From the NCBI RefSeq assembly GCF_004323595.1, contig NZ_AP019373.1, forward strand, positions 1,984,001 to 2,048,000: a DNA stretch of 64,000 nt, given 5' to 3'. Source of the stretch: Sulfuricystis thermophila (GTDB taxonomy: Bacteria; Pseudomonadota; Gammaproteobacteria; Burkholderiales; Rhodocyclaceae). Below, piece after piece: positions 47,453 through 64,000 of the stretch (its first letter is position 1; each line of letters starts with the position of its first letter). The notes beneath the pieces are model-generated. The model saw only the letters and a list, made by a program, of their open reading frames with translations. It had not been told where the DNA came from and ran no database searches. A program made the position numbers and the translations under genes.

Positions 47453-47496
47453 CGTTGACTCTCATTGCTGGAAAGAATTGGCAGGATAATACGCGA

Positions 47497-48675
47497 ATGC
47501 TTCCCGCCTTCTCCATCGGCCGTCTGCCGCGGATCGAGTTCGGCAGCGGCGCCCTGCAAAAAGTTCCCGGCATCGCCGCCAATTTCGGCCAGCGCCTGCT
47601 CATCGTCACGGGGAAGCAGAGCTTCCTCGCCTCTCCACATGCGCCGCCGCTCTTCGAAGCCCTACGCCAGCGCGGCTGCACATGGGAAACCGTTCATGTC
47701 GCAGGCGAGCCCACCGTGGCGTTCATCGATGCCACCGTCGGCCAGCTGCGCGGTGAAGATTTCGCCGCGGTGATCGGTATCGGCGGCGGATCCGTGCTCG
47801 ACGCCGCGAAGGCGATCGCAGGACTCCTCAAACCCGGCAACTCGGTACTCGACCATCTCGAAGGCGTCGGCCCCGAGTTGCCCTACCGCGGCCCGGCCAC
47901 GCCCTTCATCGCCGTGCCCACGACCGCCGGCACCGGCTCGGAAGTGACGAAGAACGCCGTGATCGGCGAGCCGGGCAAATTCAAGAAATCCTTCCGCGAC
48001 GAGCAGCTGGTGGCCGCCTGGGCAGTCGTCGATCCGGACCTACTCGCCAGCTGCTCACCAAAGCTCATCGCCGCCGATGGCATGGATGCCTTCACCCAGC
48101 TCCTGGAGAGCTTCGTCTCGCGGCGTGCGAATCCACTCACCGACGCACTGGCGAGGAGCGGCATCATGGCGGTGAAGGACGGCCTGCTGCCCTTTTACCG
48201 CGATCCGCAGAACGCCGCGGCACGGGAAAAGATGGCTTATGCCGCGCTCGTTTCCGGCATTTGCCTCGCCAATACCGGGCTGGGCGCGGTGCATGGGCTG
48301 GCCGCGCCCCTGGGGGCCTTCTTTCCGATTCCACATGGTCTGGCGTGCGGCACCTTGCTGGCGACGACGACGGCGGTCAATATCGACGCGCTGAAACAAC
48401 GCGCGCCCGACAGCCCGGCGCTGCCGAAATATGCCGAAATCGGCCGGCGCTTCGCGATGCAGAAGGGCCTGAACGGCGACGCTGCCCGCGCCTTCCTGAT
48501 CGACACCCTGCAGCAATGGGAGCGCGAGCTCGACCTGCCACGGCTGTCGGCGTGCCGTGTCACCAGCGCCGACTTGCCACGCATCGTCGCCAACTGCCGC
48601 GGCAGCAGCATGCAGACCAACCCGGTCGAACTGAGCGATGACGAAATCACCCACATCCTGCAAGAAAGGCTCTGA
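47497..48675 (+). CDS. Iron-containing alcohol dehydrogenase
   Basis: The 392-residue group III dehydrogenase has the NAD-binding GIGGGSVLDAAKAIA, PTTAGTGSEVTKNAVI, and the metal-binding DGMDAFTQLLES plus GAVHGLAAPLGAFFPIPHG with its two His ligands. It would oxidise or reduce a short alcohol/aldehyde. The start MLPAFS at 47497 was preferred to an upstream Met that overlaps the divergent gene region. A diverged 25-base repeat encodes CRVTSADL near residue 355. Two bases separate it from the carbonic-anhydrase-like gene, so they are cotranscribed. Confidence 0.92.
   Translation: MLPAFSIGRLPRIEFGSGALQKVPGIAANFGQRLLIVTGKQSFLASPHAPPLFEALRQRGCTWETVHVAGEPTVAFIDATVGQLRGEDFAAVIGIGGGSVLDAAKAIAGLLKPGNSVLDHLEGVGPELPYRGPATPFIAVPTTAGTGSEVTKNAVIGEPGKFKKSFRDEQLVAAWAVVDPDLLASCSPKLIAADGMDAFTQLLESFVSRRANPLTDALARSGIMAVKDGLLPFYRDPQNAAAREKMAYAALVSGICLANTGLGAVHGLAAPLGAFFPIPHGLACGTLLATTTAVNIDALKQRAPDSPALPKYAEIGRRFAMQKGLNGDAARAFLIDTLQQWERELDLPRLSACRVTSADLPRIVANCRGSSMQTNPVELSDDEITHILQERL
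48552..48576 (+). repeat. 25-base dispersed repeat, in the alcohol dehydrogenase
   Basis: Three differences from consensus; read as CRVTSADL, a third reading frame of the repeat. Confidence 0.6.
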
Positions 48676-48677
48676 TC

Positions 48678-49751
48678 ATGGCCATCCACCGTCGCCCGAT
48701 TCAGGAACGCATCGACTGGTTGTACGATCTTGCCGATCGCCACAGCACGAGCTTTTCCAGTCCCGAGGCATGGCTGGCGCGGCAACGCTATCTGGCCGAA
48801 CATCCGACCGCCATCGCGGTGTTCAAATGTATGGATGGACGGGTGAATATCCCGGTGGTCACCAACACGCCGGTCGGCATCCTGATGCCATTCCGCAATC
48901 TCGGCGGCCGCTTCGACCTGGGCTGGCCGCATCTGGGCGAAGTGCTAGCCAGCCATGTCCAGCGCGTGGTGAGCAGCGGACGGCGCGTGCTGCTGATCAT
49001 CAACTATCACTTTTCGCAAGGCGATCCGCGCCGTGGCTGTGCCGGCTTCGATTACGACACGTCCGCAGCGTTTGCCCATACATTGGAAATCCAGCAACAG
49101 GTCGAAACCATCTTTGGCGCTGCCCACGGGACGGTCTATCCCCTCGTCATCGGCTTGGAAACCGATGAGGATGCCCTGATCATCCATGGCCGCGACGGCG
49201 AAAGCCTGGAACTCGCCAAGCTTTCAGCCGACGAACGCGCCACGCTCGATCTCCGTCTGGCAAAGTTACTACCGGACATGCCGGCGCAAATGCGCGCCGA
49301 CCTGTTGCCGCTGCTTCACGGCAATCTCGAACACATCGACGAGGTGCGCGAGCAAATCCGCCGCAACGAGCGGATGCTCGACATCGAACACCGTGAATGG
49401 ATGATCTGTCTCGGTCGCGGCTTCGACTTCCTGCACACACCGAACGTTGCGCTGATCATCGGCCCCTACAGCCCGAATCTCGCCGAGCCGATCCACCGCG
49501 CCGCCGGCATCATCGAATCGAACATGGTTGCCGGCCGTATCCCGGACGATGGCCTATTGCTGCTCGCGTCCGTCCCTTATGACGAAATCGGCGTCGATCG
49601 GGCGCGCGCCGAGGTAAAAAGCCGCTTCCTCACTCGCTTCGCCACCGACGTGATCCGGCGCGAATTCCCCGCGCTGGCCGACAAGATGACGATCCACACC
49701 GCCGTGCTCGACTGGCGCTCGCGGCGGCTGGAGATCATCGGCACGCAATAA
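48678..49751 (+). CDS. Free-standing CsoSCA-like (beta-type) carbonic anhydrase
   Basis: The 357-residue soluble protein has the beta-carbonic anhydrase zinc and dyad pattern. C51, D53 and R55 lie in KCMDGRVN, and H111 with C121 in NYHFSQGDPRRGCAG. This C...H-x9-C layout resembles the carboxysome shell enzyme CsoSCA, but there is no carboxysome operon or shell N-terminal domain. It would interconvert CO2 and bicarbonate. It is cotranscribed with the alcohol dehydrogenase. A 25-base repeat overlaps its stop codon. I am confident of the zinc-site pattern; activity is inferred. Confidence 0.75.
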   Translation: MAIHRRPIQERIDWLYDLADRHSTSFSSPEAWLARQRYLAEHPTAIAVFKCMDGRVNIPVVTNTPVGILMPFRNLGGRFDLGWPHLGEVLASHVQRVVSSGRRVLLIINYHFSQGDPRRGCAGFDYDTSAAFAHTLEIQQQVETIFGAAHGTVYPLVIGLETDEDALIIHGRDGESLELAKLSADERATLDLRLAKLLPDMPAQMRADLLPLLHGNLEHIDEVREQIRRNERMLDIEHREWMICLGRGFDFLHTPNVALIIGPYSPNLAEPIHRAAGIIESNMVAGRIPDDGLLLLASVPYDEIGVDRARAEVKSRFLTRFATDVIRREFPALADKMTIHTAVLDWRSRRLEIIGTQ

Positions 49752-53121: not shown

Positions 53122-53146
53122 TTGCCGTCCCGTCAGCGCCGATTTT
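53122..53146 (+). repeat. 25-base dispersed repeat at the end of the NuoB-like gene
   Basis: The repeat contains the stop codon of the gene at 53133 (TGA within GGCGCTGACGGG). A T5 run (A5 on the gene strand) in it is a plausible frameshift or sequencing-error site. Confidence 0.75.
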
Positions 53147-53657
53147 TGGCGACAGCGGCGAGAATGCCACGCATTAGATCAATGGGCGTCGGCGGGCAGC
53201 CGGGCACCTTGACATCGACGGGGATGACCGCCTCGACCGGGCCGACCGTTGCATAGTTCGGGCCGAAGAGCCGACCGATCTCGCCGCAGCCGCAACCGCA
53301 ATCGCCGACGGCGACGACCAGCTTCGGGTCGGGCGTGCACTCATAGGCGATCTTCAGCGCGTTCTCCATGTTCTTCGTCACCGGGCCGGTGACCAGCAAC
53401 ATGTCGGCGTGTCGGGGGCTGGCGACGAACTTGATGCCGCGCCCTTCGAGGTTGTAGTAGGGATTGTTGAGCGCGTGGATCTCCAGCTCACAGGCATTGC
53501 AGGAGCCGGCATCGACCTCGCGGATCGTCAGCGCACGGCCGAGGATGCGCAGCACCTCATCCTGCAGGCGGTCGATTTCGCGTCGCATGTCGCCTACCTC
53601 AGGCGTAGGCTCGCTGACGATGCCGGTCTTGGCGATACGTTTGAGGAGCGCGAGCAT
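53133..53657 (-). CDS. NuoB/HyfI-like iron-sulfur subunit of an Ehr-type complex
   Basis: The 174-residue protein keeps all four ligands of the proximal N2-type 4Fe-4S cluster: CNAC (C53, C56), a cysteine in GDCGCGCGE, and PGCPPTP. It is the small subunit next to the NuoD/HyfG-like protein and would sit at the cytoplasmic face. It overlaps that gene by TGATG and is the last gene of the operon. The stop lies within a 25-base repeat. One base fewer in the A5 run would extend it to 53045 with a plausible end (DDYPTIRQQCVEFFQRER). Confidence 0.87.
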   Translation of the reverse strand: MLALLKRIAKTGIVSEPTPEVGDMRREIDRLQDEVLRILGRALTIREVDAGSCNACELEIHALNNPYYNLEGRGIKFVASPRHADMLLVTGPVTKNMENALKIAYECTPDPKLVVAVGDCGCGCGEIGRLFGPNYATVGPVEAVIPVDVKVPGCPPTPIDLMRGILAAVAKNRR

Positions 53658-55216
53658 CAGATGTCCTGCCCCGAATAGGAGAGATTGAACGATTTGTTGA
53701 TGAGCGGGAAATCCGGCACGATGTCGCGCAAGACCGCATGTTCGAGCGCCGGCCACGCCTGCCAGGAAGGATCGTGCGGATGGCAGCGGGCGATCCGGCC
53801 ATCGGGGCCCAATTGCACGCCGACGATCACTTCGCCACGCCAGCCCTCGACGATACCGACGCCGGCTGCGCCCGGAACCGGGCTGACGGTGCACCGCGTC
53901 TCACCGTCCGGCAAATCGGCGCCAAGCAGGCGGATCAGCCGCAGCGATTCGTAGATTTCGGCGAAGCGCACCGCGGCGCGCGCCGCGACATCGCCGGTTT
54001 CGGCCGTCGCTGGCCGCACGGCCAGCTTGTTCCAGGGGGGAGGCGGCTCATAGCCGTGACGATGACATCGCGCATCGAGCAGCATGCCCGTGGCGCGCGC
54101 CGCCATGCCGGACAGGGAGAGCTCCTGCGCCAGCGCCGTGTCGATCGGCCCGGTGGTGAGAAAGCGATCCTGCAGGCCCGAATGCGCGTCGTAAATGCGC
54201 TGCAGTTCCTTGACCGCACGCCCGATCTCGTCGCACTGCGCGACGAGGGCGGCGATTTTCGCGGCATCGACATCGACCGCCACGCCGCCCGGCACGATGG
54301 TATCCATCAGGAAACGGTGGCCGAACACCTCGGCATTGAGGCGTACCCAGTCTTCCTTGAGGCGGAAGAACTGCGACAGACCAAAGGCCAGCGCGGCATC
54401 GTTGCCGAGCGCACCGAGATCGCCCAGATGGTTGGCGATACGCTCGCGCTCGAGCAGCAGCGCGCGAATGGCCAAGGCGCGCGGCGGCGGCGTCACGGCA
54501 CAAGCCGCCTCGATCGCATCGGCATAGGCCCAGGCGAAGGCGCAGGTCGAATCTCCCGAGACACGGCCGACCAGCTTTGCGCCAACGGCAAAGTCGGCGC
54601 CGGCGAGACGGCACTCGATGCCCTTGTGCTGGTAGCCGAGACGCTGTTCGAGACGCAACACGCGCTCGCCGACCACGGTGAAGCGGAAGTGGCCCGGTTC
54701 GATGATGCCGGCATGGATGGGGCCGACCGGAATTTCGTGTGCCCCCTCACCACCGACCCTGACGAAATCGTAATCGGTCGGCTGGTTTTCCCAGGGCGGC
54801 GGGTCACCCGCGTCATGACGCAGCGGGAACCAATCGGCGGGCCAGCCGCCATGCCGCAGCCAGGGACGCTGATCCTCGCCGTCGTGACGGATGCCGACCA
54901 GGTCAAAGGTGGCGCGCTGCATGCGGTTTGCCGCCGCGAAGATGCCGGAGAGGTCGGGATAGACCGGATTGTCGGCAGGCAGATCGAGCGTCAGATACTG
55001 CCAGCCTTCTGCCAGGGCGAATACCGCATGAACCCGAAAGCCGGCGCCATGGGCGCGTTCATCACTGCCCCACAGCGCGCACAGCCGCCCCTCGTGACGA
55101 TGCACGGAGATCGCGAAACGCAGCCAGTCTTCGGCATCGGCGGCACGACCGCGCCAGACTGGCGCGCCGCTGCCCGGCTGACGCTCGAATTCGATCGGTT
55201 CGGCATGAAAACGCAT
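53657..55216 (-). CDS. NuoCD/HyfG-like subunit lacking NiFe ligands
   Basis: The 519-residue protein has an N-terminal NuoC-like part (to about 160) fused to a NuoD/hydrogenase-large-subunit domain with EIPVGPIHAGIIEPGH, GYQHKGIE and ERERIANHLGDLGAL. Active NiFe enzymes have CxxC motifs after the GIE helix and near the C-terminus. Here those places read RVSGDSTCAFAW and NKSFNLSYSG, so no NiFe site is possible. This is the mark of energy-converting-hydrogenase-related (Ehr) complexes. A variant 25-base repeat lies near residue 205. Confidence 0.88.
   Translation of the reverse strand: MRFHAEPIEFERQPGSGAPVWRGRAADAEDWLRFAISVHRHEGRLCALWGSDERAHGAGFRVHAVFALAEGWQYLTLDLPADNPVYPDLSGIFAAANRMQRATFDLVGIRHDGEDQRPWLRHGGWPADWFPLRHDAGDPPPWENQPTDYDFVRVGGEGAHEIPVGPIHAGIIEPGHFRFTVVGERVLRLEQRLGYQHKGIECRLAGADFAVGAKLVGRVSGDSTCAFAWAYADAIEAACAVTPPPRALAIRALLLERERIANHLGDLGALGNDAALAFGLSQFFRLKEDWVRLNAEVFGHRFLMDTIVPGGVAVDVDAAKIAALVAQCDEIGRAVKELQRIYDAHSGLQDRFLTTGPIDTALAQELSLSGMAARATGMLLDARCHRHGYEPPPPWNKLAVRPATAETGDVAARAAVRFAEIYESLRLIRLLGADLPDGETRCTVSPVPGAAGVGIVEGWRGEVIVGVQLGPDGRIARCHPHDPSWQAWPALEHAVLRDIVPDFPLINKSFNLSYSGQDI
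54590..54614 (-). repeat. Possible 25-base dispersed repeat in the NuoCD-like gene
   Basis: It matches the consensus with about two or three changes (GGCGCCGGCGAGACGGCAC) and is read as CRLAGADF. The peptide also fits the protein family pattern, so chance or convergence is possible. Confidence 0.5.
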
Positions 55217-55222
55217 GATGCT

Positions 55223-56674
55223 TCACCCGAGCATGCGCGCGGCCTCCTGGAACCAGCGCGTCAGATACGGCGGAATCCACAGCCCCATCATCAGCGCCAG
55301 CCCGAGATGGACGAACACCGGCGTGATGGCGGGCGCGTGCGGCAGAGGCTTGGCCTCGGATTCGCCGAACACCATCGGATGCACCTTGGCGAAGATCGAG
55401 GCGAATGCCACCCCCAGACCGAGCAGCAGGAAGGGCGTGGCCCAGGGATGGAACTTCATCGCATGGGTGAGGATCATGAACTCGCTGGCGAAGACCCCGA
55501 AGGGGGGCATGCCAAGGATGGCGAGCGTGCCGAGCATCAGCCCCCAACCGATCAGCGGGTTGATGCGCTTCAAGCCACGGATGTCCTCCATCATCTGCGT
55601 GCCGCATTTCTGCGCGGCGTGGCCGACGGCGAAGAAGATCGCCGACTTGACCAGCGAATGCATCGTCATGTGCAGGAAGCCGGCGAAGCTCGCCACCGGG
55701 CCGCCCATGCCGAAGGCGAAGGTGATGATGCCCATGTGCTCGATCGACGAATAGGCGAACATGCGCTTGACATCACGCTGACGGCCGAGGAAGAAGGCGG
55801 CGGCGAGCAGTGTGAAGATGCCGAAGCCCATCATCAGGTTGCCGGCGAAATCGCTGTGCAGCGCGCCGTCGGCCAGCACCTTGCAGCGCAGGATGGCGTA
55901 GAGGGCGACATTGAGCAGCAGGCCGGAGAGCACCGCGGAGACCGGCGTTGGGCCTTCGGCGTGGGCATCGGGCAGCCAGTTGTGCATCGGCGCCAACCCC
56001 ACCTTGGTGCCGTAGCCGACCAGCAGAAAGATGAACGCGATCACCATGATGGTCGGATCGAGCTGGCCCTTGACATCGACGAGATGCGTCCATAACAGCG
56101 CGGTGCCCGTCTCGCCGAGCACACGCTCCGCCGCGAAATAGAGCAGGATGGTGCCGAACAGGGCCTGGGCGATGCCGACGCCGCAAAGGATGAAATATTT
56201 CCACGCCGCCTCGAGCGAGGCCGGTGTGCGGTAGAGCGAGACGAGCAGCACGGTGGTCAGCGTCGCTGCTTCCATCGCCACCCAGAGGATACCAAGATTG
56301 TTGGTGGTGAGCGCCACCAGCATCGTGCACATGAAGAGCTGATACATGCTCTTGTAGAGCCGCAGCCGCGCCGGCGTGAGCTTGCCGTGCGAGCGGTCGT
56401 TCTTCATGTAAGGATCGGAAAAGATCGCCGTCGTCATGCCGACGAAGGCAGTCAGCGTGACGAAGAAGACATTCATCGAGTCGATGAAGAATTGCTCGCC
56501 AAAGGCAAAGCGCGGGCCGCCGGCGACGATTTCGGCCGTCAGCCCGGCGGCGGAGAGAAAGGTCGCGGCGCTGGCCAGCACATTGATGTGTGGCGCCCAT
56601 TCACGCTCGCCGGCGAAGGACAGCAGGATGCCGGCGACGAGCGGGATGACCAGGGTCAGGATAAAGAAATCCAT
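55223..56674 (-). CDS. Antiporter-like membrane subunit (HyfF/NuoN type)
   Basis: The 483-residue protein has about 13-14 helices and belongs to the Mrp/NuoLMN antiporter-like family. Signatures are GILWVAMEAATLTTVLLVSLY, a YFILCGVGIAQALFG helix, GTKVGLAPMHNWLPDAHAEGPTPVSAVLSG and the HMTMHSLVKSAIFFAVGH segment. These helices hold the charged residues that move protons or sodium ions. It lies 6 bases upstream of the NuoCD-like gene and overlaps the HyfE-like gene, giving the complex one of its pumping modules. Confidence 0.9.
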   Translation of the reverse strand: MDFFILTLVIPLVAGILLSFAGEREWAPHINVLASAATFLSAAGLTAEIVAGGPRFAFGEQFFIDSMNVFFVTLTAFVGMTTAIFSDPYMKNDRSHGKLTPARLRLYKSMYQLFMCTMLVALTTNNLGILWVAMEAATLTTVLLVSLYRTPASLEAAWKYFILCGVGIAQALFGTILLYFAAERVLGETGTALLWTHLVDVKGQLDPTIMVIAFIFLLVGYGTKVGLAPMHNWLPDAHAEGPTPVSAVLSGLLLNVALYAILRCKVLADGALHSDFAGNLMMGFGIFTLLAAAFFLGRQRDVKRMFAYSSIEHMGIITFAFGMGGPVASFAGFLHMTMHSLVKSAIFFAVGHAAQKCGTQMMEDIRGLKRINPLIGWGLMLGTLAILGMPPFGVFASEFMILTHAMKFHPWATPFLLLGLGVAFASIFAKVHPMVFGESEAKPLPHAPAITPVFVHLGLALMMGLWIPPYLTRWFQEAARMLG

Positions 56675-57342
56675 CAGCGTTCCTTGAGCTGCTCCATGTG
56701 ATGGATGTCGAGGCTGTCGAACTGGTCGCGGATCTGGAAGAAGAACACGCCGAGGATGATCATGCCGACCAAGACGTCGAGCGCGATGCCGAGCTCGACC
56801 ACCATCGGCATGCCGTAGGTGGCGGAAGTCGCGGCAAGGAAGAGACCGTTTTCCATCGCCAGGAAGCCGACCACCTGGGTGATCGCCTTCCTGCGCGTGA
56901 TCATCATCAAGAAGGCGAGCATCACCGTCGCCAGCGCGATGCCGAGGGTACCGCGCGCGATGGTGGCAGACAGCTGCGAGATCGGCGAAGCGACATTGAA
57001 GGCGATGACGACCAGGCCGAGGCCGATCAGCATCGTCGTCGGAATGTTGATCAGCCCCTCGACCTCGCCCTTGATGTGCAGCTTTCTCACCAAGCGATGC
57101 AATATCCAGGGCAGCAGAATGACCTTCAGCCCCAGCGTCAGCCCCGCCGAATAGAACAGATGGTGCTGTCCGGTCTTGAACGCCATCACCAGTGACGACA
57201 GAAACAGCGCGAAACCCTGCAGGGCGAACAGGTCGATCAACTGGATGACGCGGCGCTGCGCCAGCATCGCGAAACCGAGCAGCAGGATCACCGCGGCCAG
57301 CAGGTTGATCAGCTGGGCGTAGAGAGGCACGGCGGCGGTCAT
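56674..57342 (-). CDS. HyfE-like membrane subunit
   Basis: The 222-residue membrane protein has about six helices, related to HyfE of hydrogenase-4 and to MnhC/NuoK-type subunits (INIPTTMLIGLGLVVIAFNVASPIS, then VVGFLAMENGLFLAA with the conserved Glu). Its size and position between the HyfC-like and HyfF-like genes match hyf operons. Start and stop are each coupled to neighbours by overlap. It forms part of the membrane arm. Confidence 0.85.
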   Translation of the reverse strand: MTAAVPLYAQLINLLAAVILLLGFAMLAQRRVIQLIDLFALQGFALFLSSLVMAFKTGQHHLFYSAGLTLGLKVILLPWILHRLVRKLHIKGEVEGLINIPTTMLIGLGLVVIAFNVASPISQLSATIARGTLGIALATVMLAFLMMITRRKAITQVVGFLAMENGLFLAATSATYGMPMVVELGIALDVLVGMIILGVFFFQIRDQFDSLDIHHMEQLKER

Positions 57343-58301
57343 ACCCGGCTCTCCAGCAGCAGACGCACCAAGAGGCCGAGCACCGCCAGCAGGAAAGCGG
57401 TGCCGAGGAATTCCGGCGCGCGGAAGATGCGCATCTTGGCGTTGATCGTCTCGATCAGCGCGACGACGGCGCCGCCGATCGTCAGTTTGAGGATCAGGAC
57501 CGGCAATGCGGCGATCATGGCCAGCAGGTTGTCACGCTCGGCGATGCCCCACGGGAAGAACAGCGCCAGTCCGAGGCAGGAGTAGGCGTAGAGCTTGAGG
57601 CTCGCCGCCCATTCGAGCAGCGCCAGATGCCGCCCTGAATATTCGAGGATCATCGCCTCGTGGATCATGGTCAGTTCGAGGTGGGTGGCCGGGTTGTCCA
57701 CCGGCACGCGCGCGTTCTCGGCGAAGGACACCATCGTGAAGGCGAGGCCGGCGAAAGCGATCGACGGGTAGATCACCAGTTCGCGATGCGCCAGCGTCTC
57801 GACGATGGTCGTCACCGAAGTGGACTGGGCGATCATCGCCATCGTGAAAATCACCATCAACAGCGCCGGTTCGGCGAGGAAGCCGATCAGCATCTCGCGC
57901 CGGCCGCCCAGCGTACCGAACGAGGTGCCGACGTCCATGCCGGCCAGGGCGATGAAGATGCGCGCCAGGCCAAACACACCGACCAGCGCCAGCGCGTCGG
58001 CGGCCGGCGCGAATGGCAGGTCGGTCGACAGGCTGGGGATGATCGCGCAGGCGAGCACCATGCAGCCGAAGATGATGAAGGGCGCAAAACGGAACAGCGC
58101 CGATGCGCCATGAGCCAACACCACGTCCTTATGAAACAGCTTGTGCAGCATGCGGTAGGGCTGCAGCAGGGGGGGCGCCTTGCGGTTCTGTAACCAGGCG
58201 CGGCACTGGTTCACCCAGCCGGTCAATAGCGGCGCCAGCGCCAGCGCCAGCACGATCGCGAACAATTGACCGAAGACGCCCGTCCAACTCAAGCTCATCA
58301 T
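57339..58301 (-). CDS. NuoH/HyfC-like membrane subunit
   Basis: The 320-residue protein has about eight helices and the NuoH-family patterns: GWVNQCRAWLQNRKAPPLLQPYRML at the start, FGLARIFIALAGMDVGTSFG, FAENARVPVDNPATHLELTMIHEAMILEYSGRHLAL and a late INAKMRIFRAPEFLG. It links the soluble subunits to the pumping subunits and forms the quinone-chamber side in complex I. The first of two adjacent ATGs (58301) overlaps the stop of the upstream HyfB-like gene. Confidence 0.91.
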   Translation of the reverse strand: MMSLSWTGVFGQLFAIVLALALAPLLTGWVNQCRAWLQNRKAPPLLQPYRMLHKLFHKDVVLAHGASALFRFAPFIIFGCMVLACAIIPSLSTDLPFAPAADALALVGVFGLARIFIALAGMDVGTSFGTLGGRREMLIGFLAEPALLMVIFTMAMIAQSTSVTTIVETLAHRELVIYPSIAFAGLAFTMVSFAENARVPVDNPATHLELTMIHEAMILEYSGRHLALLEWAASLKLYAYSCLGLALFFPWGIAERDNLLAMIAALPVLILKLTIGGAVVALIETINAKMRIFRAPEFLGTAFLLAVLGLLVRLLLESRV

Positions 58302-60298
58302 GGCCTGGCCACCAGCAACAAAAGAATGAGGGTCACGAAGCTGTACATCAGATAAAAGGCGATGCGGCCACCCTGGAGACGGGTGATCAGAGCGGAAACG
58401 GCATTGGCCAGGCGCGCGATCGGCAAATAAAGCCAGTACCAGAAGTGATCCTCGACCTTGACCGTATAGATCGGCTGGCGGTCGCGAATGCTCGGAAAAT
58501 GCCGGGTCATGCGGAACATCGGTTCGAAGATGCGGCGGATCGGCTGCGAAAAGCCCTCGGCCGTATCCTGCGCGCGCGGCCCCTGGAAGTGATAGCCGCA
58601 ATCCCAGGCCGGCGAGCGACGCACGCGGCCGTGATACAGCGTCCTGACGAGCCAGCGGCCCAACAGCAGCGTCGCCACGATCGTCGCGAGGAACAACACC
58701 GGCGCATAGCTGGCGCGCTCCGGCGAAATCGGCGCCAGCAGCCACCAGCCGGATTCGGTCACGCGCTCGGCGAGCCCCTTGCCGAGCAGTTGGCGCGTCG
58801 CGGCGTCGAGTTTCAGAATGATGGTGCTGGGCAGCACGCCGAGCGCCAGCGTCAGCCCCATCAGCCAGACGAGGCCCACCTTTTCCAGCGGACCGGCGTC
58901 ATGCGCATCCTTCAGACCGGGCTCGCGCATCTGGCCGAGGAAGATGATGCCGTAGAACTTGACCAGGGCGAAGCCGGCCAGGGCGGCGGTGAGCGCCACG
59001 GCCGCCGCGGCGACCGGCACGATCATGTTGAGCCAGGAATGCGGCAGGCCGGGCGAGAACAGGAAGGCCTGCAGCAACAGCCATTCCGAGACGAAACCAG
59101 ACAGGGGCGGCAGGCCGGCGCCGGCAATCACGCCGGCGAGCGCCAGCCAGGCCACCCAGGGCATGCGGTGGATCAGTCCGCCGAGCTTGCCGAGGCTACG
59201 CTCCTTGGTGGCATGCAGCACCGAACCGGTGCAGAGAAACAGCAGGCTCTTGAAGCCGGCATGGGCAAGACAGTGAAACAGCACCGCGGTGAGCGACAGG
59301 GCGGCCAGCGCCTCCATCTTGTAGGAATGGAACAACAGCGTCAGACCGATACCGACCGCCAGCAAGCCGATGTTCTCGATCGACGAATAGGCGAGCAGCC
59401 GTTTCATGTCCGACTGCACGGTGGCGTAGAGCACGCCGAACATCGCCGTGGCCAGACCGACGCCCAGCGCGACGACCCCCCACCACCACTGGGTCATGCC
59501 GACCAGATCGAAGCCGACACGCAGCAGGCCGTAGATCGCCGTCTTCAGCATCACCCCGCTCATCAGCGCGGAGACCGGCGACGGCGCCGCCGGGTGCGCC
59601 TCCGGCAGCCAGACATGGACGGGCAGCAGACCTGCCTTGGCACCAAACCCAAACAACGCCAGCAGGAAGGCGATCGACGCCCAGAACGGCGAAAGGTGTT
59701 GCGCACGCATGCCGGCAAACGTGTAATCACCGGCACCGCCGGTCATCACACCGAACGAGAGCAGGATCGCGATCGCGCCGACGTGGGCGACGAGCAGATA
59801 GAGGAAGCCTGCGCGGCGGATCGCCTCGTGCTTGTGATCGGTGGTCACCAGCAGGAATGAGGACAGCGCCATCGTTTCCCAGGCCACCATGAAGGCGTAG
59901 GCATCGTCCGCCAACAGCACCATCAGCATGCTGGCCAGGAACACGTGATATTCCAGACACAGGGCACCGAGGTTGATGCCATGATCATGGCTGAAATAGC
60001 CTGCGGCGTAAAGCGAGATGCCGGCCGACACCAAGCCGAGCAGCAGCAGGAAGACCGCGGCGAGGTTGTCGAGGCGCAGGTGGAACGGTAGTCCGGGCAG
60101 GCCGATGACCAGCTCGGCGGTCTGGGCCGGCCCGCCGAGCGAGCCGAGGCCGACGAAGCCGGCCGCGAGGCCGACGAGGGCGCCCAGCGGGAACAGCGTC
60201 TTGGCAACGAAGCGCATGTTGCGCGGCGCCGCGAGCCCCGCCAGCCCGATCGCCAGCCACAGACAGGCAGCGATCAAGAGCGCGTCGATGGCGAGCAT
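58298..60298 (-). CDS. HyfB-like large antiporter-type subunit
   Basis: The 666-residue protein has about 16 helices and an extended C-terminus, as in HyfB of hydrogenase-4. Family patterns are AYAFMVAWETMALSSFLLVTTDH, GLLPVHVWLPEAHPAAPSPVSALMSG, YSSIENIGLLAVGIGLTLLF and LAHAGFKSLLFLCTGSVLHATKERSLGKLGG. It would be the main ion-pumping subunit. It starts 10 bases after the gamma-carbonic anhydrase stop, making that enzyme the gene directly ahead of the complex in the operon. Confidence 0.92.
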   Translation of the reverse strand: MLAIDALLIAACLWLAIGLAGLAAPRNMRFVAKTLFPLGALVGLAAGFVGLGSLGGPAQTAELVIGLPGLPFHLRLDNLAAVFLLLLGLVSAGISLYAAGYFSHDHGINLGALCLEYHVFLASMLMVLLADDAYAFMVAWETMALSSFLLVTTDHKHEAIRRAGFLYLLVAHVGAIAILLSFGVMTGGAGDYTFAGMRAQHLSPFWASIAFLLALFGFGAKAGLLPVHVWLPEAHPAAPSPVSALMSGVMLKTAIYGLLRVGFDLVGMTQWWWGVVALGVGLATAMFGVLYATVQSDMKRLLAYSSIENIGLLAVGIGLTLLFHSYKMEALAALSLTAVLFHCLAHAGFKSLLFLCTGSVLHATKERSLGKLGGLIHRMPWVAWLALAGVIAGAGLPPLSGFVSEWLLLQAFLFSPGLPHSWLNMIVPVAAAAVALTAALAGFALVKFYGIIFLGQMREPGLKDAHDAGPLEKVGLVWLMGLTLALGVLPSTIILKLDAATRQLLGKGLAERVTESGWWLLAPISPERASYAPVLFLATIVATLLLGRWLVRTLYHGRVRRSPAWDCGYHFQGPRAQDTAEGFSQPIRRIFEPMFRMTRHFPSIRDRQPIYTVKVEDHFWYWLYLPIARLANAVSALITRLQGGRIAFYLMYSFVTLILLLLVARP

Positions 60299-60308
60299 GG
60301 CGAATCGA

Positions 60309-60869
60309 TCAGAATTCGTTGCGGATACGGTTGTACCCTTGCACCAAGGAGAGATTCGCCATCACCACGCTTTCGGAAAAACTCGTCGCGTCGCCGGTGA
60401 CGCGCTGGATGTTGGCGAGATCGGCATCCGAATGGACGTTGGTCGTCGAGGGGATGTAGAAGCCCGGCGGCACATGGCAGCCTTCGACCACCGAATTGTG
60501 GCGCACGACCGAGCCATCGCCCACCGTGCAGTTGAACAGCACCGAGTTGAAGCCGATGAAGACGTTGTCGCCGACCGTGCACGGCCCATGGACGATGGAA
60601 CGGTGCGCGATCGAAGTCGCACGGCCGATCGTCACCCCGCCGCCGGCCTTGCAGTGGATCACCACGCCATCTTGGATGTTGGAGCCGGCCTTGATGACGA
60701 TCGGCTCCATCTCGCCCTTTTCATCCACCTCGTCGGCACGGATCACCGCGTAGGGGCCGATGAAGACGTTTTCCTCGACGATCACCTTGCCGCACAAAAT
60801 CGCGGTCGGATCGACGAAGGCGGATTCATGGACGATGGGCAGGTGCCCGCTGGGGTTTTTGCGAATCAT
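60309..60869 (-). CDS. Gamma-type carbonic anhydrase-like protein
   Basis: The 186-residue left-handed beta-helix protein keeps the active-site pattern of Methanosarcina Cam: R44 and D46 in AVIRADE, Q66 in NIQDGVV, zinc ligand H72 in VVIH, and H89 and H94 in SIAHRSIVHG. All three zinc histidines are present with the right H-x4-H spacing, so CO2 hydration is plausible; some such proteins are inactive structural relatives. Gamma carbonic anhydrases are subunits of plant complex I, and this gene directly precedes a complex-I-like operon (10 bases). Confidence 0.87.
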   Translation of the reverse strand: MIRKNPSGHLPIVHESAFVDPTAILCGKVIVEENVFIGPYAVIRADEVDEKGEMEPIVIKAGSNIQDGVVIHCKAGGGVTIGRATSIAHRSIVHGPCTVGDNVFIGFNSVLFNCTVGDGSVVRHNSVVEGCHVPPGFYIPSTTNVHSDADLANIQRVTGDATSFSESVVMANLSLVQGYNRIRNEF

Positions 60870-60897
60870 GACTCAAAAAAACTAATTCTAATCCTCT

Positions 60898-62841
60898 TCA
60901 AAAAACGATGTTGAGCATCACCATCAGCACCGTGATGAACAGCACGGTCATGATGCCGCCGGCGCGCATGTAGTCGGCGACGCGATAGCCGCCCGGCCCC
61001 ATCAGCAGCGCATTGACCTGGTGGGTGGGCAGGAAGAAGGAGTTCGAGGTCGCGAGCGCCACGGTGAGCGCGAACACCGCCGGATTGGCGCCGGCGCCGA
61101 TCGCGATATTCACCGCCAGCGGCACCAACAGCACGGTGGCGCCGACGTTGGACATCACCAGCGTGAAGAACGTGGCCAGCACCGCGATGGCCAGCTGGAT
61201 CACCCACACCGGTGTGCCGCCGAGCAGCGTCAGCGTCTGCTCGGCGATCCATCTCGCCGTGCCGCTCGTCTCCACCGCCAGGCCGAGGGGAATCAGGCTC
61301 GCGAGCAGGAACACCGACTTCCAGCTCACCGCCCGGTAAGCTTCCTCGATGTTGAGCACCCGCGTCAGGATCATGCCGATCGCGCCGGTCATCAGGGCGA
61401 CCGAGAGCGTGATCTTGGAGAAGAGGATCAGGCCGAGTGCGATGCCGAAGCAGATCAACGCCGCCCTGACCTTGTGCGGCCGCAGCTCTTCGTGCGGGTA
61501 TTCGGTGGTGACGACGACGAAGTTGCGGTCTTTCTCGATGTGCGCGAGCGCCGCCCAGGGCGTGTGCACGATCAGCGCATCACCGGCCTGGAACGGCAGG
61601 TCGCGAATGCCATCGCCCTCGCGGAGCGTCTGCCCCGCGCGATGCAGCGCGACCAGTGCAAGGCCATAGGTTTTTCTCAACCAGACGTCGCGCGCACTCT
61701 TGCCGATCAGATCCGAGCCGGGCGGGATGACCACTTCGGCGATGCCGGCCTTGTTGGGCGCCAGCGTATCGGCAAAGGCGACGAGTTCGGGCCGGAAAAC
61801 CAGCCCATGCTCGGCGGCAAAGGCATCGAGTTTCTCCGGCGCACCCAACACCCCCAGCACGCTGCCGGCCTCGATGGCGACGTCGCGCGCCACGCCGCCA
61901 GGACCGATGCGCAGATCGTCTGCACCGCGCAGCATGGCGATGACGCGCAGCCGCCAGGGCTTTTCGATCTCTTCGAGCGTCTTGCCGACCAAGGGACTGC
62001 CCGCCGGCACCTCGACCTCGCGCAAGGCGTAATCGAGGCCATAGAGCTCGCGGTAGTAATCCATGGCGCTCGTGCCGCTGGTCATGTCCTCTTCGGCCTT
62101 GCCCGGCAGCACGTAACGGCCGGCGAGCACGAAATAGACGATGCCGGAAGCGAGCAGCGCCAGCCCGATCGGCGTGACGGTGAACAATGGCCAGGTCTGC
62201 ATCTGCTGATCCGGCGGCAACGCCTTGTTCGAGGCAAGGATCAGGTCATTGAGAAGAATCAACGGGGACGAGCCGACCATCGTGATGGTGCCGCCGAGGA
62301 TCGCGCAAAAACCCATCGGCATCAACAAGCGCGACATCGGCAACCCCGTGCGCGCCGAGATGCGCGCGACCACCGGCAGGAAGAGCGCCGCCGCACCGAC
62401 GTTCTGCATGAAGCTGGAAATGAAGCCGACCGTGCCGGAAATGGCCGGAATGATGCGCGCTTCGGTACGACCGGCGACGCGCAGGATGAAGCCGGCCACC
62501 TGACCCATCAGGCCGGTCTTGTCGAGCCCTGCGCCGATGATCATCACCGCGATGATCGACACCACCGCGTTGCCGGAAAAGCCGCGGAACAGCTCCGCCC
62601 CCGGCACCAGCGGACGGGCAAGCCCGAGCCAATCGTGAAAGTGGCTCACCAGGCCGAGGATCACCATCACCGTCACGGCGGCGACATCGACACCGACCAC
62701 CTCGAACGCGAACAGATAGACGGTCAGCATCAGGATGCCGAACGCGACGGCGATTTCACGCGACGGCACGACGTTGGCGACGACGAGCCAGACGAGGAAA
62801 AACAGCACTGCGGCAATGATGGACTTGAGATTTTTCTTCAT
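60898..62841 (-). CDS. SLC13/DASS-family permease with two TrkA-C domains
   Basis: The 647-residue inner-membrane protein has two halves of anion-transporter helices (SFMQNVGAAALFLPVVARI with ILGGTITMVGSSPLILLNDLI, and MSNVGATVLLVPLAVNIAIGAG with ATSNSFFLPTHQ). Between them lie two cytoplasmic RCK_C/TrkA-C domains (about 280-440). This layout is seen in sulfate and other inorganic-anion permeases of the family. It is cotranscribed between the SulP gene (48-base gap) and the carbonic anhydrase (28-base gap). Substrate could be sulfate, a dicarboxylate or bicarbonate-related; it is unresolved. Confidence 0.88.
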   Translation of the reverse strand: MKKNLKSIIAAVLFFLVWLVVANVVPSREIAVAFGILMLTVYLFAFEVVGVDVAAVTVMVILGLVSHFHDWLGLARPLVPGAELFRGFSGNAVVSIIAVMIIGAGLDKTGLMGQVAGFILRVAGRTEARIIPAISGTVGFISSFMQNVGAAALFLPVVARISARTGLPMSRLLMPMGFCAILGGTITMVGSSPLILLNDLILASNKALPPDQQMQTWPLFTVTPIGLALLASGIVYFVLAGRYVLPGKAEEDMTSGTSAMDYYRELYGLDYALREVEVPAGSPLVGKTLEEIEKPWRLRVIAMLRGADDLRIGPGGVARDVAIEAGSVLGVLGAPEKLDAFAAEHGLVFRPELVAFADTLAPNKAGIAEVVIPPGSDLIGKSARDVWLRKTYGLALVALHRAGQTLREGDGIRDLPFQAGDALIVHTPWAALAHIEKDRNFVVVTTEYPHEELRPHKVRAALICFGIALGLILFSKITLSVALMTGAIGMILTRVLNIEEAYRAVSWKSVFLLASLIPLGLAVETSGTARWIAEQTLTLLGGTPVWVIQLAIAVLATFFTLVMSNVGATVLLVPLAVNIAIGAGANPAVFALTVALATSNSFFLPTHQVNALLMGPGGYRVADYMRAGGIMTVLFITVLMVMLNIVF

Positions 62842-62860
62842 GGGATCACACTCGAAGTGG

Positions 62861-62885
62861 AAAATCGGCGCTGGCAGGACGGCAC
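62861..62885 (-). repeat. 25-base dispersed repeat between the SulP and SLC13 genes
   Basis: It lies 4 bases beyond the SulP stop codon, in the short gap before the SLC13 gene. Two changes from consensus (AAAATC and GGCAGG). Confidence 0.82.
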
Positions 62886-62889
62886 CGGT

Positions 62890-64000
62890 TCACGAGGCAG
62901 GGCGCAACAGCGTGCCGGCGGTCTCGATGCCGGCTGCGGCGGCGCGGCGGTAGGCTTCCTCGATCGCGGCATCGGCAGTGCCGAAGACGTTTTCGGCGCC
63001 GATCGCGTCCATCAGCCCGGTGGCTTGCATCACATCGCGCACCTGCTTCTTGAGGCCGCCGAAGAGCAGCGTCACGCCATTGGCGCGCAGGCGTTCGACG
63101 AGATGGTGGATCACCTCTTCGCCCGAGGCATCGAGCTCGTTGATCGCATCGCCGACGACGATCAGGTATTTCATCCGTGGATGCTCGGCCACCGCTTCGA
63201 GCACCGCATCCTCGAACCAGGCGACGTTGGCGAAATAGAGCCGTCCGTCGAAGCGCACCGCGACCACCGTTTTCGATTCCGGCAGACCGGCTACCCGGAT
63301 GTCGCGCAGCGTGCCGTCGGGATGGCGACCGAGAACGGCGACGCGCGGCGTCATCGTGCGGTAGAGGAACAGGCCGATGGCCAGACCGGCGCCGATCAGG
63401 ATGCCCTTGTCGAGATGTGGCGCCACGGCAAGGGTGGCGACGAAGGTGACGATCGCCGCGATGCCGTCGTGCCGACTCGCCTGCCAGGCGTGTTTGATCG
63501 CCGCGAAATTGACGAGCCCCACCACGGCCATGATGATCACCGCCGCCAGGGTCGCCTGCGGCAAGTGATAAAGCAATGGCGTCAGGAACAGCAGCGTGAG
63601 CAGCACGAACAGCGCGGTAAACACCGAGGACATGCCGGTCGCGGCGCCGGCGTTGAGATTGACCGCCGAACGCGAAAACGAGCCGGACACCGGAAAGGCC
63701 TGCGTCAGGCTGCCGACGATGTTGGAGAGCCCCTGACCGACCAGCTCCTGGTTCGGATCGAGCCGCTGTTTGGTCTTCGCCGCCATCGCCTTGGCGATCG
63801 AGATCGCTTCCATGAAGCCGACCAGCGAGATGACGATCGCCGTCGTGAGCAGCGTGCCGAGCATTTCCCAATTCATCTTCGGCAGCGCAAACGACGGCAA
63901 GCCCTCGGGAATCTTGCCGACCACCTGGCCGCCGCCGGAGAGTTTCACCTCGCCCTTCTCGCCATGCACGCCGCGCACGATGCGCCAGCGCAGACCATCG
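62890..64000 (-). CDS. SulP-family anion transporter with STAS domain (partial)
   Basis: The C-terminal 370 residues are present; the gene starts beyond the right edge. It has SulP membrane signatures (GFMEAISIAKAMAAKTKQRLDPNQELVGQG, GSFSRSAVNLNAGAATGMSSVFTALF) and a C-terminal STAS domain (LYFANVAWFEDAV, LIVVGDAINELDASGEEVI). The reading frame continues through the window end without a stop. SulP members carry sulfate, bicarbonate (BicA) or other anions. It heads, within this window, the operon containing the carbonic anhydrase and the complex-I-like genes, which makes bicarbonate a candidate. Confidence 0.92.
   Translation of the reverse strand, partial: DGLRWRIVRGVHGEKGEVKLSGGGQVVGKIPEGLPSFALPKMNWEMLGTLLTTAIVISLVGFMEAISIAKAMAAKTKQRLDPNQELVGQGLSNIVGSLTQAFPVSGSFSRSAVNLNAGAATGMSSVFTALFVLLTLLFLTPLLYHLPQATLAAVIIMAVVGLVNFAAIKHAWQASRHDGIAAIVTFVATLAVAPHLDKGILIGAGLAIGLFLYRTMTPRVAVLGRHPDGTLRDIRVAGLPESKTVVAVRFDGRLYFANVAWFEDAVLEAVAEHPRMKYLIVVGDAINELDASGEEVIHHLVERLRANGVTLLFGGLKKQVRDVMQATGLMDAIGAENVFGTADAAIEEAYRRAAAAGIETAGTLLRPAS

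Follow-up and report, generated by a model that had tools for sequence, protein, structure and literature searches.

Why would a membrane complex that resembles hydrogenase-4 and complex I, and that lacks the cysteines of a NiFe site, be encoded together with a carbonic anhydrase and two anion permeases? The question is raised by nine genes at one end of a 64,000-nucleotide stretch of the Sulfuricystis thermophila genome, here called the window (G000:C1:1984001-2048000, where G000 is the window's own genome, 2.74 Mb in a single contig). They encode a SulP permease, a second anion permease, a gamma-carbonic anhydrase (gCA) and HyfB-, HyfC-, HyfE-, HyfF-, HyfG- and HyfI-like subunits (together, Hyf). 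A first-pass annotation had proposed that they could form an energy-coupled CO2-hydrating or bicarbonate-accumulating complex. The link to dissolved inorganic carbon (DIC) that this implies holds up, through SulP adjacency, two carbonic anhydrases (CAs), a RuBisCO operon and the replacement of Hyf by, or its tandem arrangement with, the DIC-uptake system DAB; energy-coupled hydration is a step that we infer. We hypothesise that the operon forms a cassette that acquires inorganic carbon for the neighbouring Calvin-cycle genes, in which NiFe-less Hyf takes DAB's place, and consider the chances of this to be evenly balanced.

The best evidence that the Hyf and DAB modules serve the same need is that they are swapped, with the flanks kept, at one site in the genus. 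This site is bounded upstream by SulP and downstream by the genes for a CsoSCA-family CA (csoCA) and an iron-containing alcohol dehydrogenase (FeADH). It holds Hyf in G000, G004 and G007, two other genes separating HyfI from csoCA in G000, and in G008, G009, G010 and G012 an antiporter-type gene, DabA, DabB and two further antiporter-type genes lie between a related SulP and csoCA. DabA (PF10070) was confirmed in all four, and the antiporter family PF00361 in one gene of the G008 cluster and four of the G009 cluster, the others being recognised by tblastn. FeADH was seen beyond csoCA in G008, G010 and G012; a DASS fragment is also present in G012, and cbb genes follow in G009. The modules may also stand in tandem, as G001 reads SulP, gCA, an antiporter-type gene, DabA, DabB, two PF00361 genes and HyfBCEFGI, with csoCA and FeADH at least 5.5 kb further down. 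That the Hyf spot holds a known CO2-uptake machine in sister species suggests that Hyf helps CO2 fixers to gather inorganic carbon. Among 19 genus members, ten have Hyf, eight have DabA, three have both and four have neither. G006, G011 and G018, which have neither, carry a longer CsoSCA-like match (~500-547 amino acids) at most ~5 kb from RuBisCO on the same contig, an arrangement that carboxysome operons would show (no search for shell proteins was made in these genomes). In the open literature, with subscription journals and supplements not covered, we found no earlier description of the Hyf-DAB exchange, of the shared SulP/CA context of NiFe-less Hyf, or of HyfBCEFGI as a DIC system. DAB itself is a two-subunit complex (PMC13144422), and we observe that the DAB clusters of the genus (L044, L193-L196 and L197) have two to three extra PF00361-like antiporter genes around DabA-DabB.

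A wider survey places this site in context. Members of the HyfG clade, taken as best matches of at least 52% identity and above ~300 bits (one split gene and one contig-end fragment being counted), occur in 38 of 101 near-set genomes, the window's own included, and in 33 of the 273 further genomes sampled across the class. We mapped 40 loci from near-set genomes, of which L076-L080 are distant homologues or true hydrogenases, and a further 80 named loci from GTDB species genomes (the best 80 of 570), neighbouring genes outside the window being named by tblastn with proteins of this genome or of L044. The order HyfBCEFGI is complete in 100 of the 115 NiFe-less loci of L042-L161, the remaining 15 being cut at contig ends, and thus the gene arrangement is not a matter of chance. 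At class level the full order is found in 29 of 34 loci; L284, L286 and L294 run off their contigs, and in L274 and L277 these queries matched only HyfF and HyfG, or HyfG.

The commonest neighbour of Hyf is the SulP cluster, found at 22 of 120 loci. If a DIC link is defined as SulP, gCA, CsoSCA-type CA, DabA or cbb genes near HyfG, 27 of 119 rows have one and 92 do not, 27 of the latter having too little flank. For the count on the HyfG tree, a duplicate HyfG (L092, equal to L057) and these 27 short-flank rows were dropped, and the strict count also drops the short-flank positives L084, L095, L130 and L144 and the outgroup L077-L080. On what is a quick tree with long outgroup branches, the link is then present in 23 of 84 NiFe-less rows with at least eight changes, or in 27 of 88 rows with 11 changes when the four short-flank positives are kept. 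Within the window's own HyfG clade 13 of the 15 rows with enough flank are linked; of the two others, L051 has DabB-like and NuoX2-like genes at a contig edge and L045 has nothing. The links take several forms: 1) SulP2-gCA-Hyf followed by cbbOQSL and cbbR in Thiobacillus (L110), and SulP-gCA-Hyf in L131; 2) SulP-Hyf-csoCA in L061, extended by cbbR in L093; 3) Hyf-RuBisCO-cbbQ-cbbO-cbbR in Thiomonas (L144); and 4) Hyf followed by an antiporter-type gene, DabA and DabB in Candidatus Accumulibacter (L118), and DabA adjoining Hyf in L076.

Other surroundings were also recorded. Second in frequency beside Hyf, at 19 of 120 loci, comes a gene cluster whose tested member is spermidine-synthase-like (SpeE-like), seen for example at L114 3741-4574; together with MetG-like and DUF1275 clusters it recurs beside stand-alone Hyf loci, and these neighbours give no DIC clue. 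No neighbour cluster recurs in more than three of the 34 class-level loci. In L274 (G277) TauE and SulP2-like genes lie directly upstream of HyfF and HyfG, with matches to HyfB, HyfC and HyfE absent between them. At L102, L117, L135 and L088 two Hyf-type clusters stand in tandem or nearby, one being more divergent (25-60% identity per subunit).

In the window itself (Table 1), gene content, place and strand are as first annotated. The intergenic gaps are 48 (SulP-DASS), 28 (DASS-gCA) and 10 (gCA-HyfB) bases, followed by -4 (HyfB-HyfC), -4 (HyfC-HyfE), -1 (HyfE-HyfF), +6 (HyfF-HyfG) and -1 (HyfG-HyfI), which on one strand fits a single operon; the initial three distances agree with the first-pass annotation, whereas its statement that overlaps follow fails at HyfF-HyfG. 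The SulP gene, which had been called partial, is truncated by the window end and is itself complete. The permease that had been named SLC13 has PF03600 (CitMHS) and TrkA_C domains and matches the DASS model TIGR00785 only below its cut-off. HyfE has no Pfam match, and the Hyf set includes two PF00361 antiporter-type subunits, HyfB and HyfF. A family scan restricted to the operon revealed no HyfA/HyfH-type ferredoxin or flavin subunit among its proteins, in line with what had been reported; nor was an FdhF/HycB-type partner seen within the operon, which has only six Hyf-type subunits and not a full NuoA-N set with an NADH module.

Table 1. Genes of the Hyf operon and of the downstream flank, in window positions.
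Feature	Position	Strand	Remarks
SulP permease, STAS domain and charged insert	62890..64000, gene runs on to ~65025	-	711 aa in full
CitMHS/DASS-like (SLC13-like) anion permease, TrkA_C domains	60898..62841	-	647 aa
Gamma-carbonic anhydrase (gCA), Cam/CcmM type	60309..60869	-	186 aa; H72/H89/H94, R44/D46/Q66/D67
HyfB-like antiporter-type subunit	58298..60298	-	666 aa; NF005086 over cut-off
HyfC-like (NuoH-type) subunit	57339..58301	-	320 aa; PF00146
HyfE-like membrane subunit	56674..57342	-	222 aa; NF008556 below cut-off; gene order conserved
HyfF-like antiporter-type subunit	55223..56674	-	483 aa; NF005045 over cut-off
HyfG-like large subunit, 30+49 kDa fusion	53657..55216	-	519 aa; PF00346+PF00329; S220/S223/S513/G516
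HyfI-like (NuoB-type) small subunit	53133..53657	-	174 aa; PF01058; C53/C56/C120/C154
CsoSCA-family (beta-class) carbonic anhydrase homologue (csoCA), free-standing	48678..49751	+	357 aa
Iron-containing alcohol dehydrogenase (FeADH)	47455..48675	+	downstream flank of exchange site in several genus members

Could the complex still be a hydrogenase? HyfG has the fold of a group-4 hydrogenase large subunit and lacks the two CxxC motifs of the NiFe site. Aligned with the true NiFe homologues L077, L079 and L080, which retain CGICG and DPCxSC, its L1 motif reads SGDS in place of CGIC and its L2 pair reads S..G, so that the missing cysteines already noticed in the first-pass annotation are confirmed. 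Residues were counted over up to 115 clade rows from loci L042-L161 (L076-L080 excluded, one duplicate pair included), and the former cysteine columns read S97/C9/A9 at 220, S103/T10/A2 at 223, S98/A8/N7/C1 at 513 and G112/A1 at 516. D222 is invariant (115 of 115), as are N511, Y514 and S509 (each 114 of 114), which argues that the change at the NiFe site is remodelling under constraint and not decay. Going by these alignments, the Hyf complex is not a hydrogenase, and its metal site appears to have been remade into a conserved pocket (D222, N511, Y514 and mostly Ser at three of the former Cys positions). A working group-4 NiFe hydrogenase of the formate hydrogenlyase type, suggested by the NCBIfam names and by the presence of HypD in the genome, is thus rejected with near certainty, since position 516 is never Cys and no counted clade row can hold all four NiFe cysteines, the other three positions are Cys in at most nine rows each, and an FdhF/HycB-type partner was not seen in the operon; an argument from missing Hyp maturation genes was dropped because HypD was found.

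The AlphaFold2 model of HyfG (pLDDT 84) best matches 7z0s_E of Escherichia coli formate hydrogenlyase (Foldseek TMq 0.86; VIA Z 41.6, rmsd 2.8 over 499 residues) and then complex I, and only formate hydrogenlyase and complex I chains are among the matches listed in the VIA comparison. We do not interpret the geometry of the pocket because model loops 162-177, 184-196 and 508-519 have pLDDT below 50. In HyfI, C53, C56, C120 and C154 are cysteine in 114, 114, 108 (with five alignment gaps) and 112 of up to 114 rows, respectively. The antiporter-type subunits are similarly constrained. HyfF E135, K224 and K343 were read in 107, 109 and 110 rows with zero exceptions, while HyfB has E141 in 97 of 98 rows, K221 in 98 of 98 and K350 in 101 of 101; HyfF N255 is invariant (109 of 109) at the position where HyfB carries K252 (93 of 99). 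By comparison with complex I, we take the conserved Lys and Glu of HyfB and HyfF to be proton-channel residues.

The gCA is a hexapeptide-repeat (Hexapep) protein of the Cam/CcmM type, whose best PDB relatives are dGCA1, entries named carbonic anhydrase (e.g., 3oup and 1thj) and CcmM-type proteins (e.g., 3kwc). The three zinc histidines claimed for it are present and were read in eight of eight aligned homologues, and R44, D46, Q66 and D67 are in place; Arg, Asp and Gln are the active-site residues expected of gamma-CAs, as Cys-x-Asp-x-Arg, His and Cys are the residues expected of beta-CAs. One further gCA-like match in the genome is weak (31% identity). In csoCA, PF20686 scores over its cut-off and TIGR02701 is matched partially (44 bits against a cut-off of 241), and its model (pLDDT 81) matches the CsoSCA structures 2fgy and 8thm with TMq 0.65-0.70. 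C51, D53, R55, H111 and C121 do not vary across the 16 homologues aligned; the protein thus has the fold and residues of a beta-CA, without being a CsoSCA equivalog over cut-off with a carboxysome. A carboxysome explanation of csoCA was rejected, as a genome-wide search found no BMC shell proteins; the same scope returned neither a PF00484 beta-CA nor DabA (PF10070), the latter being absent from the operon as well. This free-standing family of ~355 amino acids occurs beside HyfI or a DAB cluster in the window, L193-L196, L199, L061, L093 and L269.

Is gCA a subunit of the complex, as had been implied? Its adjacency to HyfB, which the first-pass annotation proposed to follow across genomes, recurs in five loci (the window, L043, L048, L110 and L131), whereas elsewhere its position varies: it is beside another SulP in L047, L053 and L060, upstream of SulP and ~4.5 kb from HyfB in L093, and between SulP and the DAB cluster in G001 (L197). 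Moreover, comparing the window with G002 (L048), the DASS-like permease is 97% and gCA 99% identical, whereas HyfB-I are 73-90% identical (HyfB 83%, HyfG 73%), so that DASS-gCA seem to have been exchanged separately and recently; the SulP match in L048 covers 96 residues only. Given this variable position and separate exchange, gCA as a fixed Hyf subunit was rejected, and we read it as a probable partner of bicarbonate transport.

SulP combines PF00916 with a STAS domain and scores over the TIGR00815 cut-off. Within it (L008 891-3026) we observe a charged insert at approximately residues 240-365 that looks coiled-coil by eye; single alignments cross it for 13 SulP proteins linked to Hyf and for some of the second SulP copies, and alignments of the L053, L130 and L131 SulP break there. 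Upstream of SulP are TauE-Usp, a response regulator, a histidine kinase-like open reading frame (ORF) and a second SulP with Usp domains. Beyond these, on the operon strand, lie class II aldolase-like, CbbY-, CbbO- and CbbQ-like genes, CbbS and a form I-type CbbL, with a CbbR-like gene divergent to the cbb operon; CbbL was tested, and the labels aldolase, kinase, CbbY, CbbO, CbbQ, CbbS and CbbR come from sequence reading. This cbbLSQO RuBisCO operon is ~10 kb upstream of the Hyf operon, the CbbO-like gene ending ~10 kb and the RuBisCO large-subunit gene ~13.5 kb past the SulP start. Elsewhere in the genome there are a second RuBisCO large-subunit gene (G000:C1:2118882-2119775, ~70 kb off the operon), a separate complex I locus (three PF00361 genes at ~1.195-1.200 Mb and a NuoD-like match at 1.187 Mb) and, as labelled from ORF reading, a likely Mrp-type multisubunit antiporter cluster with two PF00361 genes (G000:C1 ~2497400-2502300; L009). 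Among named homologues, those nearest to the window's HyfG come from Betaproteobacteria, Sulfuritalea and Rhodocyclaceae metagenome-assembled genomes (MAGs).

Genomes that carry Hyf tend to encode RuBisCO, at least among those near the window's own. Calling RuBisCO at E <= 1e-50, it is present in 29 of 38 Hyf-positive and 22 of 63 Hyf-negative near-set genomes (p = 8e-5, n = 101, ignoring kinship), in 19 of 23 against 17 of 38 within the family (p = 0.007, likewise ignoring kinship), and in 10 of 15 against 5 of 25 when one genome per family is taken (p = 0.006). In the same three sets DabA and RuBisCO are not significantly associated (p = 0.09, 0.07 and 1.0).

How might such a cassette act? 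SulP, and perhaps also the DASS-like permease, would bring bicarbonate in, and gCA with the nearby CsoSCA-type enzyme would interconvert CO2 and bicarbonate, setting the balance for RuBisCO. HyfBCEFGI would be a NiFe-less, proton-translocating relative of hydrogenase-4 that retains the [4Fe-4S] ligands and proton-channel residues. A proton gradient, or electrons passing through the HyfI cluster, may keep intracellular bicarbonate high, either by powering the hydration of CO2 or by energising SulP and clearing protons. The sequences themselves show the make-up of the operon, the lost NiFe ligands, the conserved channel residues, the exchange with DAB and the recurring neighbours; the energy source, the direction of coupling, the substrate of SulP and DASS, and any carbon chemistry in the HyfG pocket are inferred. 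A bolder version ranks HyfBCEFGI with NDH-1MS and DAB, as a third class of complex that couples energy to CO2 hydration or to DIC accumulation, in which the rebuilt pocket S220-G-D222-S223 and N511-x-S513-Y514-x-G516 would handle CO2/bicarbonate and protons. Such a complex would be interchangeable with DAB among autotrophs and would supply anaplerotic carbon to heterotrophs. We put this forward tentatively, as a doubtful extension.

Several observations weigh against the cassette. Where the flank is long enough to judge, 61 of 84 NiFe-less rows show no DIC neighbour, and at class level only two of 34 loci have one with the queries used (L269 with csoCA, and L274 with SulP2 and TauE). The majority of Hyf homologues are stand-alone loci, several of them in genomes that lack RuBisCO; of the 38 Hyf-positive near-set genomes, 9 have no match at the E 1e-50 threshold. 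Enrichment in CO2-fixing species, which the first-pass annotation had proposed to look for, is seen within the order and disappears across the 273 other genomes of the class (18 of 33 against 114 of 240, p = 0.46), so that RuBisCO is rejected as a general correlate of Hyf. Nor do Hyf and DabA exclude each other, since 8 of the 38 Hyf-positive genomes carry DabA (p = 1.0 over the 101 genomes) and 3 of the 19 genus members hold both; mutual exclusion was accordingly rejected. gCA is frequently absent, or paired with SulP or DAB in place of Hyf. SulP scores 140 bits against the BicA equivalog NF050096, for which the cut-off is 880, and the SulP and DASS families also transport sulfate. The named relatives include sulfur-cycle genera. 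Lastly, neither a purely DAB-like model nor a purely NDH-like one accounts for [4Fe-4S] ligands that are kept while electron-input subunits are missing.

A serious rival, and a possible one, is that Hyf is an accessory pump that moves H+ (or Na+), energising bicarbonate import by SulP/DASS or exporting the protons of CO2 hydration, with no carbon chemistry of its own and with heterotrophs keeping it for pH or ion balance. The two PF00361 subunits with their conserved Lys and Glu, the prominence of SulP among Hyf neighbours and the wide occurrence of Hyf, including in genomes that lack RuBisCO, would all be consistent with this, as would the report of N. marina SulP genes beside NhaB antiporters (PMC8115632) and the Nitrospirales Ehr complexes without known function (PMC12342949). 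However, exchange with DAB, which is described as performing vectorial CO2 hydration (PMC13144422), and the presence of two kinds of CA are more specific than a pump needs, and a bare antiporter needs neither conserved [4Fe-4S] cysteines nor a conserved HyfG pocket.

It is less probable that Hyf is a redox complex for autotrophy, in which HyfGI would exchange electrons with a soluble carrier and couple this to proton transport, for example in reverse electron flow for Calvin-cycle reductant, the DIC genes being mere neighbours in one autotrophy region. The near-complete conservation of the HyfI cysteines, the fold of HyfG, nearest to the large subunits of formate hydrogenlyase and complex I, and co-occurrence with RuBisCO within the order are what such a complex would show; on the other hand, the operon showed neither a HyfA/HyfH-type nor a flavin subunit, what recurs beside Hyf is transporters and anhydrases, and some carriers have no RuBisCO. 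More improbable still is a chance or sulfur-related neighbourhood, with SulP, DASS and TauE exporting sulfate or sulfite in a sulfur oxidiser and Hyf an unrelated housekeeping complex. TauE-Usp and the second SulP upstream, relatives such as Sulfuritalea and Thiobacillus, and the absence of a DIC neighbour at most Hyf loci point that way, whereas the DabA exchange at the same flanks, the recurrence of gCA and CsoSCA-type CA, and the closeness of the RuBisCO operon argue against it.

NiFe-less Hyf and Ehr-type complexes are common, and no paper that we found in the open literature assigns them a tested function. The DAB exchange and the linkage to SulP and two CAs give NiFe-less Hyf a specific, testable role in inorganic-carbon supply. 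Were the carbon-acquisition cassette to be confirmed, it would represent a new CO2-concentrating module for chemolithoautotrophs without carboxysomes, and would suggest a reason why Burkholderia-type bacteria and Cupriavidus retain a hydrogenase-like complex unable to bind nickel-iron.

How does the locus compare with known systems? Cyanobacterial NDH-1MS are CO2-uptake complexes of the complex I superfamily that are tied to CO2 hydration; the window operon differs in being without the NDH-1 core set. The six-gene Hyf module and one Hyf-CA adjacency are already in print. An earlier account lists the same six genes, hyfBCEFGI, for Cupriavidus metallidurans CH34 and C. necator H16 and judges a part in lithotrophic growth very unlikely; we found no function proposed and no neighbours described there, and its main text does not use the term carbonic anhydrase (PMC2864759). 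In Acidithiobacillus caldus a flexible-genome hyfBCEFG adjoins a CA and was taken as H2-evolving and possibly aiding pH/CO2 homeostasis, and a core hyf copy co-occurs with carbon-fixation genes; the hyf-CA adjacency is shared with the window, and the difference is that the enzyme is a beta-CA, not a gamma-CA (PMC3826726). The operon also falls within the definition of Ehr (Ech-hydrogenase-related) complexes, with NuoL-like and HyfE-like subunits and NiFe-less large and small subunits (PMC7894505; PMC12342949), and a locus from a Nitrospirae MAG (L160) falls on the NiFe-less side of the HyfG tree. The Ehr complexes of Nitrospirales are described as lacking NiFe sites, with their function stated to be unknown (PMC12342949), and the physiological role of that of Geobacter sulfurreducens as never investigated (PMC7894505). 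We found no DIC linkage in these accounts, a difference from the present locus.

SulP-CA pairs and fusions are predicted to transport bicarbonate (PMC6458275; PMC8115632), and the window resembles them in having SulP beside a CA and differs in the gamma class of that CA and in the added Hyf complex. A minireview of the DIC toolkit mentions an NADH-dehydrogenase-associated vectoral CA, and the word hydrogenase never occurs in its main text (PMC10880623). At the exchange site the counterpart of Hyf is DAB/DAC. DAB2 is described as performing vectorial CO2 hydration coupled to membrane potential, with a NuoL-like subunit (PMC13144422). Both systems have a NuoL-type proton channel that is, or in the case of Hyf would be, tied to DIC uptake, and both occupy the same site in sister genomes. 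Hyf differs in having no DabA and in possessing six subunits and a hydrogenase-type peripheral arm.

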